Assembly (NCBI GenBank): GCA_009869945.1 | Contig: WIXG01000141.1 | Location: 116,417-180,416 of the forward strand | DNA: 64,000 nt | Direction of reading: 5' to 3' | Source of the DNA: Mesaphorura yosii | Lineage: Eukaryota; Arthropoda; Collembola; Poduromorpha; Tullbergiidae | In this document: one piece after another, positions 49,311-64,000 of the stretch | Numbering within the stretch: position 1 is the first letter of the stretch | Layout of the letters: each line of letters begins with the position of its first letter | Translations under genes and position numbers: made by a program | The notes under the pieces: generated by a model | Databases searched by the model: none | The model's input: the letters and a program-made list of their open reading frames with translations, nothing else | Told to the model about the DNA's origin: nothing

Positions 49311-50348
49311 ATGTTATTTATGAACGGTTTTAAGCTGTTCTCAGGTAAGGTCTAATTGGAACATTATCAGGGCGCATAGCCTAGAGCGATATCATTTTGG
49401 GGTATCAATTGTGAATAATGATATATTTAGTAGCACCTGCCAAAAATGCATTTGGCTTTGGCTTTCTAACTTTTGGCGCGGCAGCCGCTGGGGCTAACAC
49501 CTTCATGGTAAGTCAACCGTTAAATCGATCTATTTAGTTTTGGTTAATTGATTGATTGACGAACTACTGTTCATTGTTCATGGGTACAGATTGGTGATGG
49601 ATGGAAGAAAGGCACGTCTGTGTATGATTTTAATTATGTGGATATTGATGGCGCTGAACAGAACATGGCCCGTTTCAAGTATGAATAATTTTAACTCTTC
49701 GCATTCCGCTCAAGTGTAGTATACTAACTTAATTCTTTACTAATGTGCCCAGGGGTCATGTTTTGATTATCGTAAACTTGGCTAGTAACTGAGGAAGGAC
49801 TCCCGTCAACTACACTCAGGTCAGCACAGTTGACAGCATTCAGAGTAGCGAGATTTAGCACCTCGTATGACTAAGCTTTTAATTAGTAATTAATTATAAC
49901 AGTTGACGGAACTCCATAATAAGTATGGGGCATCAAAAGGTCTGCGTATATTGGGCTTCCCGTGTAATCAATTCGGAGGACAGGAACAGGGCACTAATGC
50001 AGAAATTAAGGAGTTCACCAAGAAATACAACGTACGCTGGGATTTGGCGTCTAAAGTTGAGGTTAATGGTGAAACAGCGCATCCGTTGTGGAAATATCTC
50101 AAAACCCATCAAAGCAGTTTGTTGGGAGAATTCATCAAGTGGAACTTCAGCAAGTTCATTATTGATAAGAAAGGCAACGTCGTTAAGCGCTATGCTCCGG
50201 TTACAGATCCGCTGGTAAGTCCCATGCAATTTGCACCTCAATCTTCTATTTGTGTTACTGAAAATCGAATTCTTCGATCTAACGCCGTGTTGCGTTGTTC
50301 TTACAGGATATGGAAAAGGATCTCGTATACTACATGGATCAACATTAG
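49311..50348 (+). CDS. GPX4: selenocysteine glutathione peroxidase, GPX4 (phospholipid hydroperoxide) type
   Basis: Six exons: 49311-49344, 49431-49507, 49590-49678, 49753-49819, 49903-50214 and 50307-50348. All phases agree, giving 206 residues with TGA read as selenocysteine (residue 80). The introns are only 74-92 bp. The enzyme reduces lipid hydroperoxides with thiols. Catalytic residues of the family are present: Sec80 in [15 protein letters not shown], Gln112 in [10 protein letters not shown], and Trp169-Asn170 in IKWNFSKF. The absence of the extra subunit-interface loop and the ending [16 protein letters not shown] fit monomeric GPX4. The N-terminus is a hydrophobic Gly/Ala/Phe-rich leader of about 35 residues, suggesting mitochondrial or secretory targeting. 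Two tandem SECIS-like hairpins follow in the 3' UTR. A start inside intron 1 (49418) or at Met37 (49505) is also possible. Confidence 0.93.
49790..49792 (+). other. in-frame TGA selenocysteine codon
   Basis: The TGA stands in an otherwise open exon at exactly the catalytic Sec/Cys position of GPx enzymes (VNLASN-TGA-G-R-T). The frame continues conserved on both sides, including the next exon, so this is recoding to selenocysteine and not a nonsense mutation. The SECIS-like hairpins downstream support this. Confidence 0.93.
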
Positions 50349-50403
50349 TCAATGCCTCGAGTCAAGATATTTTAGGATTAGTCACGTTAACTTGCAATCT
50401 GTG

Positions 50404-50474
50404 CCTGTGCTGTATGATATTAGTCTTGTAAACTTTTCTTAAAGCCGAGACTGATTGATTTGCTGTAGCTCAGG
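50404..50474 (+). promoter_or_regulatory. SECIS element 1 (form 2) in GPX4 3' UTR
   Basis: The quartet strand ATGA is at 50414-50417 and its partner TGA at 50456-50458. A 10-bp helix pairs 50419-50428 with 50446-50455, with two G-T wobbles. The conserved unpaired AAA (50430-50432) lies 12 nt after ATGA. A ministem CTTT/AAAG (50433-50436 with 50441-50444) makes it a form 2 SECIS. A lower helix pairs 50404-50411 with 50467-50474 (7 of 8). Spacing and motifs match the eukaryotic SECIS consensus bound by SBP2. Confidence 0.88.
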
Positions 50475-50556
50475 GACCGATGTAGTAGGTATAAGGAATT
50501 ATCTCATTTAAGTTCGTTCGCTCTGTACCACAGTATTGTAAGCCAACCATTTGCAA

Positions 50557-50625
50557 ACAAGTTCTATGATATTAATCTTGTAAACTTCTAATGAAGCCGG
50601 GATTTAATTGAAAACGTTATCTTGT
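50557..50625 (+). promoter_or_regulatory. SECIS element 2, tandem copy in the same 3' UTR
   Basis: ATGA is at 50566-50569 and TGA at 50609-50611. Helix 50571-50580 pairs with 50598-50608 with one bulged T (50603). Unpaired AAA is at 50582-50584 and the ministem CTTC/GAAG at 50585-50588 with 50593-50596. The lower helix pairs ACAAG (50557-50561) with CTTGT (50621-50625). It is clearly homologous to the first element, 152 bp upstream. Two stem pairs have changed on both sides (G-C to A-T in the helix, T-A to C-G in the ministem), which argues that both copies were kept under structural selection. Confidence 0.82.
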
Positions 50626-50652
50626 AGCAAATGAAAGGTTTAATTGCGCCCA

Positions 50653-50658
50653 AATAAA
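50653..50658 (+). promoter_or_regulatory. GPX4 poly(A) signal
   Basis: AATAAA lies about 300 bp after the stop and just past the second SECIS, so both hairpins should be in the mature mRNA. No canonical hexamer lies between the two SECIS copies. Confidence 0.7.
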
Positions 50659-50827
50659 GTATAATAAGAGTTGTAAAATGTGACCACTTTCATTCTGAAT
50701 GATTTGCACTGTCTAAAAGAGGTACCATTGTTCTTTTCGCTACTAATATCAAACAATTTGCTCGTCACAACTTTCAAATAGCGCCAAATTGGTGTCATGA
50801 CTGAAAAATAATGAAAATAATATTGGA

Positions 50828-61765: not shown

Positions 61766-62110
61766 AGACGCCTAATGTATTCTTCACGCTTTGCGCAGCA
61801 CGGAGCAACAGACTAAGAAACTGCAATCGCAGCAATTTATAATTCGTGGACTGTTCTCGCCAAAAAAAATTGCAACGTGCTACTCTAACATTTGAACTGC
61901 TTTTCCTGCTTACTGCTGCATGAGTACTTGGCCTTGCATGAAAACAATCCCTGAGAATTCGTTAAGTTATTATATAATATATGTATGTGAAAGATTTGTA
62001 TCTTCTCTATAATAAATGGATCTGAGGTCTCCAACTTATTCTTGAACAAATACATTCAGTTAGCATGTTCCAATTATGGGTGAGTTGCACTTTTCCGGCA
62101 AACATCAAAT
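61766..62110. other. spacer between the inverted-repeat element and hexamer array
   Basis: AT-rich DNA with no gene or repeat that I can support. Confidence 0.5.
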
Positions 62111-62266
62111 TCAGGCTCAGGCTCGGGCTCACGCTCGTATACATTTGCTTGTTGGGCTCAGGCTCAGGTTCCGGCTCGGGCTCAGGCTCAGGCTCAGGCT
62201 CAGGTTCAGGTTCAGGTTCAGGCTCAGGCTCAGGCTCGGGCTCAGGCTCAGGCTCAGGTTCAGGGA
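62111..62266 (+). repeat. hexanucleotide tandem array (GGCTCA)n with GGTTCA variants
   Basis: A pure block of about 19 units runs from about 62154 to 62266, preceded by diverged units from about 62111. Units vary as GGCTCA, GGTTCA, GGCTCG and GGTTCC. One plus frame reads Gly-Ser repeats and another Leu/Phe-Arg repeats. Both are by-products of the repeat and are not taken as genes. Confidence 0.9.
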
Positions 62267-62409
62267 CAGTCCACAGTGCTTCCCTCTGCTAACGAAGGAC
62301 CGCGATTTAGTGCCGACACACAGGATTATGCTTAAATTTGAACTCTATAATCACGCATTGAGTATAAAGGGAGAGAAAAATCAGATCGTCCACAAGTTGG
62401 ACTCGGAAT

Positions 62410-62947
62410 TGACTAGAGGAGTTAATTGACTAAAAAAAGTAACAAATAAAAACTAAAATTGACTAGAACGTGTAGTGTGCTTGACTAGAAGTGTTGTGAC
62501 CAAATATTGACTAGAAAAAACAAGTGCATGATTGAAACTTCTATGGACTGCCACTTCATTCCAATCATCATTTAAGGCATGAGCCAATTCGACAACAGCA
62601 GCAGCGGTGAGTTACTTTGACTAGAATAGTTTTAAATGACTAGATTTTGGATGACTAGGACTGTTTGTAGACTAGATTAATTAAAATTAATGTTTCATTT
62701 ATTGCAGAAGAAGAAGTCAGGGCAATTCTAAAACCCTCACACACATCACTGTATAGGTTATTCGAGATAAAAAAAACTGCAAGCCTTCCTGAAATTAAGA
62801 AGGCCTTTCACCAGAAGATCAGAGAAGAGCACCCGGACAAATCTGGATCTGCCGAGCTGGTGAGACGGGCGACATTTTAAAGACTGACTAGATGTGTTTA
62901 CAATTGACTAGATTTGTGTAGCAAGTTCACCGGCGCAAGTGACTAGA
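62410..62947. repeat. cluster of TGACTAGA octamers around the 5' part of the J-protein gene
   Basis: Nine exact copies begin at 62410, 62460, 62482, 62508, 62618, 62637, 62885, 62905 and 62940. One-mismatch variants lie at 62427, 62652 and 62669. All are on the same strand and all lie in the upstream region or the first two introns; none is in an exon. Spacers of about 10-25 bp differ in sequence, so it is not a simple tandem repeat. The copies about 30 bp (62940) and about 37 bp (the variant at 62669) before acceptors could serve as branch points (TTGAC/TGAC type), but that does not explain the upstream copies. Confidence 0.85.
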
Positions 62948-64000
62948 TTTATTTTTTTTTACTTTTCAGGCCAAGCGGCTAACGGCGGCCTTCCGAATTT
63001 TAAGTGATCCAGACAGTCGCCGCATTTACAATCTCTTTGGTCGTGTAGAGGCAGGAAAGGTTTTGCAAAGGAAAGAAGAAGCTGAAAAGGAAAAAGAGGA
63101 AAAGGAGAGGAAAAGGGCAGAAGAGGCAAACGAACGGAAAAAGGTAGAGGAGAGAAGGAAGCGAGAGAGTGAAGAAGCCGAGTGGGAGAAAATCCAAGCT
63201 GAAGAAAGAGAAAGAGAAGAACAAGCGGCCGCGCTGAGGAGAAAAGAGAGAATGGAGAAAGCAACCCGTTACAGAGCAGAAATGGAAAGGAGAGCGAAGG
63301 AGGAAGAGGAAGCAAAGGCCAACGAGCGAAGAGAGAAGGCAGCGAAAGAACAGGAAGAGAAAATGAAGAAAAATCAGGCGAATCAGGCCGACGTGGAAAT
63401 GGTTGCTGAGAACGAAGAAACCGGGACAGGACAGAAGACAGAAAAGCAAGGAAAAACGGGCGGAAAGAAGAAGGAGAACAAGCAGCAGAAAAATGAAGCA
63501 AAATCAAAGGTCACGAGGGCCGAGGAGAACAGAAAGCGTAGGCAGGAAGAAAGGCGAGAAGAGGAAATTGAAAACAGAAGAAGGAAGATAGCTACAGAAA
63601 ATAAGAAAGTTTACGTCGTGTCCAGCTCAAGCGAGGAAGAAAGTGAGGAGAAACAAAAGGATAGAGAAAAGATTTGGAAACTGAAGGCGGGAGAAGACAT
63701 TCTGAAGGAAAGGGAAGAAATGAGGTCAGAAACGAGAGAATTTAGAAAAGAAAAAGAGAGATTTTGGAAAGATGAAGGAAGCGTCAAACAGGAGAAAGAA
63801 AAATTGGAAAGTGAAAGAGAAGAACTAGGAAAGGAAAGGCTCGAGCTGAAGAGGGAACGCGAGCAAATGGCGATGGAGCGGGAAAGAATGGTGAAGGAGA
63901 GAGAAGAAATTGGAAAGGAACGAGAAGAAATCGGGAAGGAACGGGAAGAAATCGGGAAGGAACGAGAAGAATTTAGATACGAGAGGGAAGAACTCAGGCG
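62579..64000 (+). CDS. J-domain (DnaJ) protein with long charged helix, 3' end beyond window
   Basis: Exons are 62579-62606, 62708-62859 and 62970 to the window end (open), with matching phases 1 and 0; at least 403 residues. The J domain is at residues 22 to about 85: SLYRLFEIKKTASLPEIKKAF, the HPD motif at 51-53 (EEHPDKSG), and helix III/IV AFRILSDPDSRRIYNLFGR. J domains stimulate Hsp70 ATPase activity. The rest is almost entirely Glu/Lys/Arg, an extended coiled coil or single alpha helix. It includes a Ser/Glu-rich patch (VVSSSSEEESEE, a likely acidic-kinase substrate) and heptad repeats KEREEIG at the end. There is no J-protein zinc finger and no membrane segment in view. This looks like a class C J-protein; the client and compartment are unknown. 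The ATG was chosen because it precedes a good donor (GCG|GTGAGT) and gives correct phase. Confidence 0.85.
63894..63977 (+). repeat. 21-bp tandem repeats coding KEREEIG heptads
   Basis: Four successive 21-base units encode K-E-R-E-E-I-G three times and K-E-R-E-E-F-R once, at the edge of the window. The i to i+4 Glu/Arg-Lys spacing favours a stable single alpha helix. Synonymous differences between units (cga/cgg/aga, att/atc) show they are not newly copied. The array may continue past the window. Confidence 0.8.

Follow-up and report, generated by a model that had tools for sequence, protein, structure and literature searches.

Gene organization at the GPX4a locus

The window (the whole stretch of 64,000 nucleotides analysed here) belongs to a eukaryotic assembly of 93 Mb. 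A GPX4-type gene, labelled GPX4a in this study, was located on its plus strand at 49418-50348. The spliced frame comprises five exons (49418-49507, 49590-49678, 49753-49819, 49903-50214, and 50307-50348) separated by GT-AG introns, encodes 199 residues, and ends with the stop codon TAG (50346-50348); we infer the first exon and the start codon. The product matched the Pfam GSHPx domain (PF00255) with a score of 130.4 bits. Among the 41 relatives of solved structure listed by phmmer, 21 of the top 22 were named GPX4 or phospholipid hydroperoxide GPx or were GPX4-named designs, and the one remaining entry was named glutathione peroxidase. Both this domain and its nearest relatives assign the GPX4a product to GPX4. 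A sole in-frame TGA, the predicted Sec codon, was found at the catalytic site (49790-49792, plus strand), where a paralogue on contig C262 has Cys. The predicted 3′ UTR covers 50349-50675 on the plus strand, from the stop codon to past an AATAAA signal, the 3′ end being approximate.

Further along the window, at 53.4-56 kb, lies a potassium channel gene whose three best relatives, among 120 listed, were springtails (Collembola): Orchesella dallaii (58%), Folsomia candida (59%), and Allacma fusca (56%), with alignments covering 96-99% of the query. Next came another Folsomia channel at 47%; all other listed relatives were at 37-54%. The source of the DNA is accordingly likely a springtail. A search of the assembly for COX1 gave no match. 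Near the end of the window, a repeat tract at 62007-62292 would translate to (Pro-Glu)n from one strand and to (Gly-Ser)n from the opposite one, and a highly charged frame, perhaps a coiled-coil, adjoins this repeat at 62943-63998 and runs off the window.

Two SECIS-type hairpins in the predicted 3′ UTR

Eukaryotic SECIS elements carry a quartet, formed by ATGA on one side and NGAN on the other, with tandem G.A pairs. A preliminary description of this DNA had reported two homologous hairpins with this pattern in the 3′ UTR of a single-Sec GPX4 gene, and both were found in the predicted 3′ UTR of GPX4a, which indeed has one in-frame TGA. They lie on the plus strand with a start-to-start spacing of 152 nt. 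H1, detected by the Rfam model RF00031 and by folding, spans 50404-50474 (core 50414-50459) and is situated 65 nt after the stop codon. H2, detected by RF00031 and by an out-of-sample model (see below), spans 50539-50642 (core 50566-50612) and is situated 217 nt past the stop codon. Measured along the spliced mRNA model, the distances from the Sec codon to the hairpins were 446 nt for H1 and 598 nt for H2.

In H1, the ATGA side of the quartet (50414-50417) is followed by a 10-bp helix (50419-50428/50446-50455), an AAA stretch (50430-50432), and a ministem (50433-50436/50441-50444), and the TGA side is TGAT at 50456-50459. The corresponding parts of H2 are ATGA at 50566-50569, AAA at 50582-50584, a ministem at 50585-50588/50593-50596, and TGAA at 50609-50612. 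A 10-bp helix had been described for both hairpins; ten pairs were present in each, but the helix of H2 carries in addition one bulged U on its 3′ side, among 50603-50605, the exact place being ambiguous. H2 is further extended by a long basal stem, an inverted repeat whose arms are 50539-50554 and 50627-50642, with ACAAG/CUUGU pairing further inward. The features of a form 2 SECIS were thus present in H1 and H2 alike: the quartet, a helix of about 10 bp, an unpaired AAR about 12 nt past ATGA, and a ministem, which is of 4 bp in each hairpin and shows a double change between the copies. Their context is also that of a SECIS: the gene has an in-frame UGA, the hairpins lie in what is predicted to be its 3′ UTR, and the organism decodes Sec.

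Sec decoding and other selenoprotein genes of the genome

A tRNA-Sec(UCA) gene with the anticodon TCA was detected in the genome with 74.6 bits. In-frame TGA codons were also found in genes for SelenoF, with a Pfam Sep15_SelM match and the motif CGUKL, for a protein that we take to be SelenoS from its GGUG end and layout, and for SPS2 and TrxR; two SelenoT-like loci, which may use Sec, were seen as well. SECIS elements were surveyed within 600 nt past the stop codon in six genes with in-frame TGA. Two matches were obtained in GPX4a alone and one each in GPX4b (described below), SelenoF, and SelenoS. SPS2 gave no match at the survey level but did give one when the level was relaxed, and for TrxR none was found at the survey level (600 nt) or at the relaxed level, which was applied to 1000 nt past the stop. 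Since the scan overlooks SECIS elements, as in TrxR and, at the first level, SPS2, a count of one means one found.

The SECIS of TrxR is presumably divergent or located further off. The TrxR protein had 44-48% identity to all 120 matches listed, too even a spread to point to a clade. Its tail (contig C7, locus L038, approximately 2281-2298) reads GAG CAA TGC TGA TCA TAG, i.e., E-Q-C-U-S-stop. This Cys-Sec-Ser ending differs from the Gly-Cys-Sec-Gly tail of animal TrxR.

The sister gene GPX4b

A second Sec GPX4 gene of the same genome, GPX4b, is located on contig C426 (locus L008) and has one TGA at the Sec site. The GPX4a and GPX4b proteins had 67% identity over the alignment. One SECIS was detected in GPX4b; it is of form 2, homologous to H1 and H2, and scored 21.8 bits with RF00031. 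Its helix contains a C-U mismatch, and pair probabilities were 0.06-0.16 in the lower helix and 0.66-0.68 in the upper helix. Two environmental proteins, P0003 and P0005, were 92-94% identical to GPX4b and had W at the Sec site. Because W is what is expected when TGA is read as Trp, GPX4b seems to have been maintained as a Sec gene. GPX4b served as a yardstick for H2, and the Cys GPX4 paralogue on contig C262 served as a negative control, in which model R1, trained on H1, H2, and the GPX4b SECIS, found no such element.

Several side observations were made on related sequences. Of 30 GPx proteins (P0001-P0030), 20, each from a source labelled jgi or lgn, had Trp in place of Sec, as expected where gene prediction translates the Sec TGA as Trp; such data may contain many overlooked Sec GPX4 genes. 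One of these proteins, the environmental P0001, is the closest to GPX4a; it has Trp at the Sec site and the tail NSQHRLRLFFHLNDVNF, its frame apparently running past a TGA stop. The codons for NDVNF in this tail could hold an ATGA about 36 nt after the stop, a hint of a SECIS near the stop like H1. Near the end of contig C426, L008 contains at 44-238 an inverted repeat of about 195 bases, which was matched by several microRNA models below their cut-offs and looks like a short inverted-repeat transposon. Another GPx (locus L010, contig C1052:1706-2044; 33% identity) has a frame free of interruptions; its contig, 11.6 kb long, is possibly derived from a bacterial contaminant or symbiont.

Model scores, motif scans, and folding of H1 and H2

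In a search of 1.4 kb with the Rfam model SECIS_1 (RF00031), H1 scored 35.2 bits and H2 26.3 bits, the gathering score being 35, which is a curated cut-off and not a structural feature. A covariance search had been proposed as a check on both hairpins: H1 scored above the cut-off, and H2 fell below it yet was not rejected outright, scoring higher than the GPX4b SECIS. When RF00031 was run over the whole window at the gathering level with default filters, 0 matches were obtained, so that H1 and H2 were missed as well. Genome-wide, with 133 of 1771 candidates scored, the same model gave no match at E 0.001; at E 10 it gave two places, neither of them H1 nor H2. One of the two was above the cut-off and is located downstream of SelenoS, and the other (22.8 bits) was not matched again when its locus was rescanned at E up to 1.

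A covariance model built from two sequences, H1 and the SECIS of GPX4b, with H2 excluded, detected H2 with 48.4 bits and an E-value of 1.1e-9 in 64 kb, the E-values of this search being rough. A motif scan of both strands of the window gave two matches, H1 and H2, at a level chosen post hoc and just met by H2. Among 3000 single-base shuffles of the 3′ UTR, 0.5% had a motif match and none had two. A laxer scan of the window gave 11 matches, among them H1 and H2. When up to 3 mismatches were allowed, the GPX4-type core was matched at 14 places; those with 0, 1, and 2 mismatches were H1, H2, and the GPX4b SECIS, respectively, and the other 11 all had 3 mismatches, while a reversed-pattern control gave 10 places. 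A 20-base SECIS pattern was also matched once in viral contigs (L013), at a place with no SECIS match at E up to 1, and this was regarded as a chance match.

On folding, H1 had -20.0 kcal/mol with a z-score of -3.00 against shuffles. The short 71-nt piece of H2 was no better than shuffles (z -0.94), and with the basal stem included (50536-50645) the z-score was -2.61. The helix and the ministem were present in the minimum-energy folds of H1 alone, H2 alone, and the whole 3′ UTR, and H1 and H2 still folded with three exons attached to the 3′ UTR. Within the whole 3′ UTR, pair probabilities were 0.87-1.00 for the ten helix pairs of H1 and 0.67-0.97 for 8 of the 10 helix pairs of H2, those independent of the bulge. 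The stability of the 3′ UTR as a whole was not in excess of shuffles (z -0.15).

From these data it can be judged whether H2 might be no SECIS at all, being either a chance hairpin or a look-alike with some other function. The score of H2 under the Rfam gathering level would fit such a case. Against it, H2 is homologous in sequence and structure to H1 and the GPX4b SECIS, is recognized out of sample, and has the quartet, helix, AAA, and ministem all in place. A chance hairpin was rejected on the out-of-sample E-value and the shuffle-controlled motif scan, and we consider it highly improbable that H2 is anything other than a SECIS. H2 also exceeded the GPX4b SECIS in Rfam score, fold energy, and pair probability; the two scored equal in the motif scan, and with model R1 the GPX4b SECIS had 78.6 versus 73.6 for H2. 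Since H2 outdoes the sole SECIS detected in GPX4b by Rfam and by folding, its low Rfam score is no mark of decay.

Conservation of pairing and age of the doubling

Between H1 and H2, 6 substitutions were counted in 28 stem positions, and all 14 pairs were kept. As described previously for these hairpins, two stem pairs were changed on both sides and wobble changes elsewhere left the pairing intact; one of the changed pairs, given as 50575-50604, may equally be 50575-50603 because the place of the bulge in H2 is ambiguous. In simulations, random placement of 6 changes kept 14 pairs in 0.7% of runs (P 0.007), which supports the earlier proposal that pairing was preserved by compensatory change, a sign of selection on both structures. 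With the GPX4b SECIS included, 41 of 42 cells were paired (97.6%) and three pairs were changed on both sides; of 500 shuffles, 9 and 19 reached the observed values. When the partners were shifted by one column, at most 60% of the cells were paired. Resting on two or three sequences, this test suggests selection with modest strength.

The cores of H1 and H2 were identical at 37 of 46 positions, the bulged base of H2 being left out. They differ by 9 substitutions and one indel, compared with 10 substitutions between H1 and the GPX4b SECIS and 11 plus one indel between H2 and the GPX4b SECIS, a divergence pattern that is nearly star-like. In none of the three pairwise comparisons were the flanks, taken as 60 nt on each side, more alike than shuffles. 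The doubling looks old because homology ends at the SECIS core and because H1 and H2 have diverged from each other about as much as from the GPX4b SECIS. The simplest reading is that the doubling may be about as old as the split of GPX4a and GPX4b, with the core alone held since. The flanks were perhaps never copied, so their dissimilarity is no proof of age, and the core, being under constraint, is a crude clock. A stretch present in GPX4a and GPX4b, TGTAGCTCAG, looked promising as a marker of positional homology; assigning the GPX4b SECIS to H1 or H2 through the flanks was rejected, as masked flanks scored no better than shuffles.

These comparisons bear on whether H1 alone works and H2 is a tolerated, slowly decaying remnant of a duplicated SECIS. 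H1 surpasses H2 in Rfam score (35.2 versus 26.3) and in fold, and the bulge is in H2, as might be expected of a leftover. On the other hand, the 14 pairs, the quartet, and the AAA have been kept over an age comparable to that of the GPX4a/GPX4b split, and H2 possesses its own long basal stem and surpasses the only SECIS found in GPX4b by Rfam score and pair probability. Taken together with the published cases given below, we regard a decaying H2 as rather unlikely, and as the main rival to two working elements.

Poly(A) signals

Nine poly(A) signal variants were scanned. The sole AATAAA in 50349-50800 lies at 50653-50658 on the plus strand, downstream of both hairpins, and none of the nine variants was found between H1 and H2. 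Because the sole AATAAA follows H2 and no variant separates the hairpins, the mRNA is predicted to contain H1 as well as H2. The possibility raised before, that a poly(A) site between the hairpins removes H2, thus found no signal at that place; the weak variant AATGAA does occur at 50590, inside H2, and at 50630, and use of the copy at 50590 would truncate the mRNA inside H2 or immediately past it.

Alternative 3′ ends are one way in which H1 and H2 could work in turn; others are differing responses to selenium or to a different SECIS-binding protein, as inferred for the two SECIS elements of SelP. Passages of PMC5133445 report that human SELENOP has a poly(A) site between its SECIS elements, 10-25% of the mRNAs being without SECIS 2, and that deleting either SELENOP SECIS in mice has different effects. 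H1 and H2 are likewise unlike each other in helix stability and basal stem, and the weak variant inside H2 would also fit use in turn. The lack of any signal variant between the hairpins speaks against use in turn, and with one UGA there can be no division of labour among Sec codons. Use of H1 and H2 in turn therefore seems improbable to us.

Comparison with known genes carrying two SECIS elements

The preliminary description had treated selenoprotein P as the well-known two-SECIS case, and this overstated the novelty of the arrangement, as genes outside SelP with two SECIS elements are already in print. According to passages of PMC2874816, SelW1 of Ciona intestinalis has one Sec codon and two form 2 SECIS elements in its 3′ UTR; it resembles GPX4a in these respects and differs in protein family. 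In passages of PMC3473315, amphioxus DI_b is described with one TGA and two strong SECIS elements downstream, for which nonreciprocal recombination was proposed; like GPX4a, it combines one TGA with two SECIS elements, but it is a deiodinase gene in a gene cluster. The same source reports Nematostella vectensis Gpx_a as a GPx gene with two SECIS elements, as in GPX4a. Nematostella belongs to another phylum and an independent origin of the doubling is likely. Since genes with one Sec codon and two SECIS elements have been published, the arrangement in GPX4a is rare and not unprecedented.

Selenoprotein P shares with GPX4a the presence of two SECIS elements in one 3′ UTR, which passages of PMC5133445 and PMC9337670 describe as inferred to do different jobs. 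It is unlike GPX4a in having many Sec codons versus one UGA, and the human gene has one SECIS of each type (passages of PMC3737529), while both are form 2 in GPX4a. With its one in-frame TGA, GPX4a lacks the several Sec codons of a SelP-type two-SECIS gene. Within the same genome, GPX4b is the closest counterpart, a Sec GPX4 gene with a homologous form 2 SECIS, of which one was detected versus two in GPX4a. In another springtail genome, four SECIS elements were counted, the genes being unnamed in the passages of PMC5644144 consulted, and no springtail GPX4 with two SECIS elements was mentioned in the titles and abstract openings of open papers among the matches listed.

Some of these reports favor a leftover H2. 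SECIS 1 of Ciona SelW1 was suspected by its authors to be idle, and the same passages of PMC2874816 quote, for the two potential SECIS elements of human Sep15, a reading in which one is non-functional; the extra SECIS of amphioxus DI_b is thought to have no current function (passages of PMC3473315). The role of a second SECIS at a single Sec codon is thus the point on which GPX4a bears, one copy in SelW1 and in DI_b having been considered probably idle by the authors. What is new in GPX4a are the signs of selection on both copies and the presence in the same genome of a sister gene with one SECIS found.

Possible role of the second SECIS

On balance, we think it probable that GPX4a carries two homologous SECIS elements that are both likely to work for one UGA and have been held by selection since an old doubling. 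A SECIS binds SBP2, by which eEFSec and Sec-tRNA are brought to the UGA (passages of PMC8704476 and PMC2500217). If both hairpins are in the mature mRNA and both bind SBP2, H1 and H2 would each recruit SBP2 and eEFSec for this one UGA, and the mRNA would have doubled docking sites for it. The second SECIS would then raise or safeguard UGA recoding, for example when selenium is scarce, and such an increase or insurance of recoding seems its most likely role. The doubling would have originated in local copying of the SECIS at about the time when GPX4a and GPX4b split, and both copies appear to have been held by selection since, because the functional core alone is still alike.

A more specific and doubtful proposal is that the tandem SECIS acts as a dosage device, by which the GPX4a mRNA would gain priority for Sec-tRNA over GPX4b and the other selenoprotein mRNAs at low selenium. 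If this is true, SECIS number itself would set the rank of a gene in the selenoprotein hierarchy. GPX4a and GPX4b offer a natural two-versus-one comparison in a single selenoprotein background, and SECIS number would become directly testable as a control on recoding.
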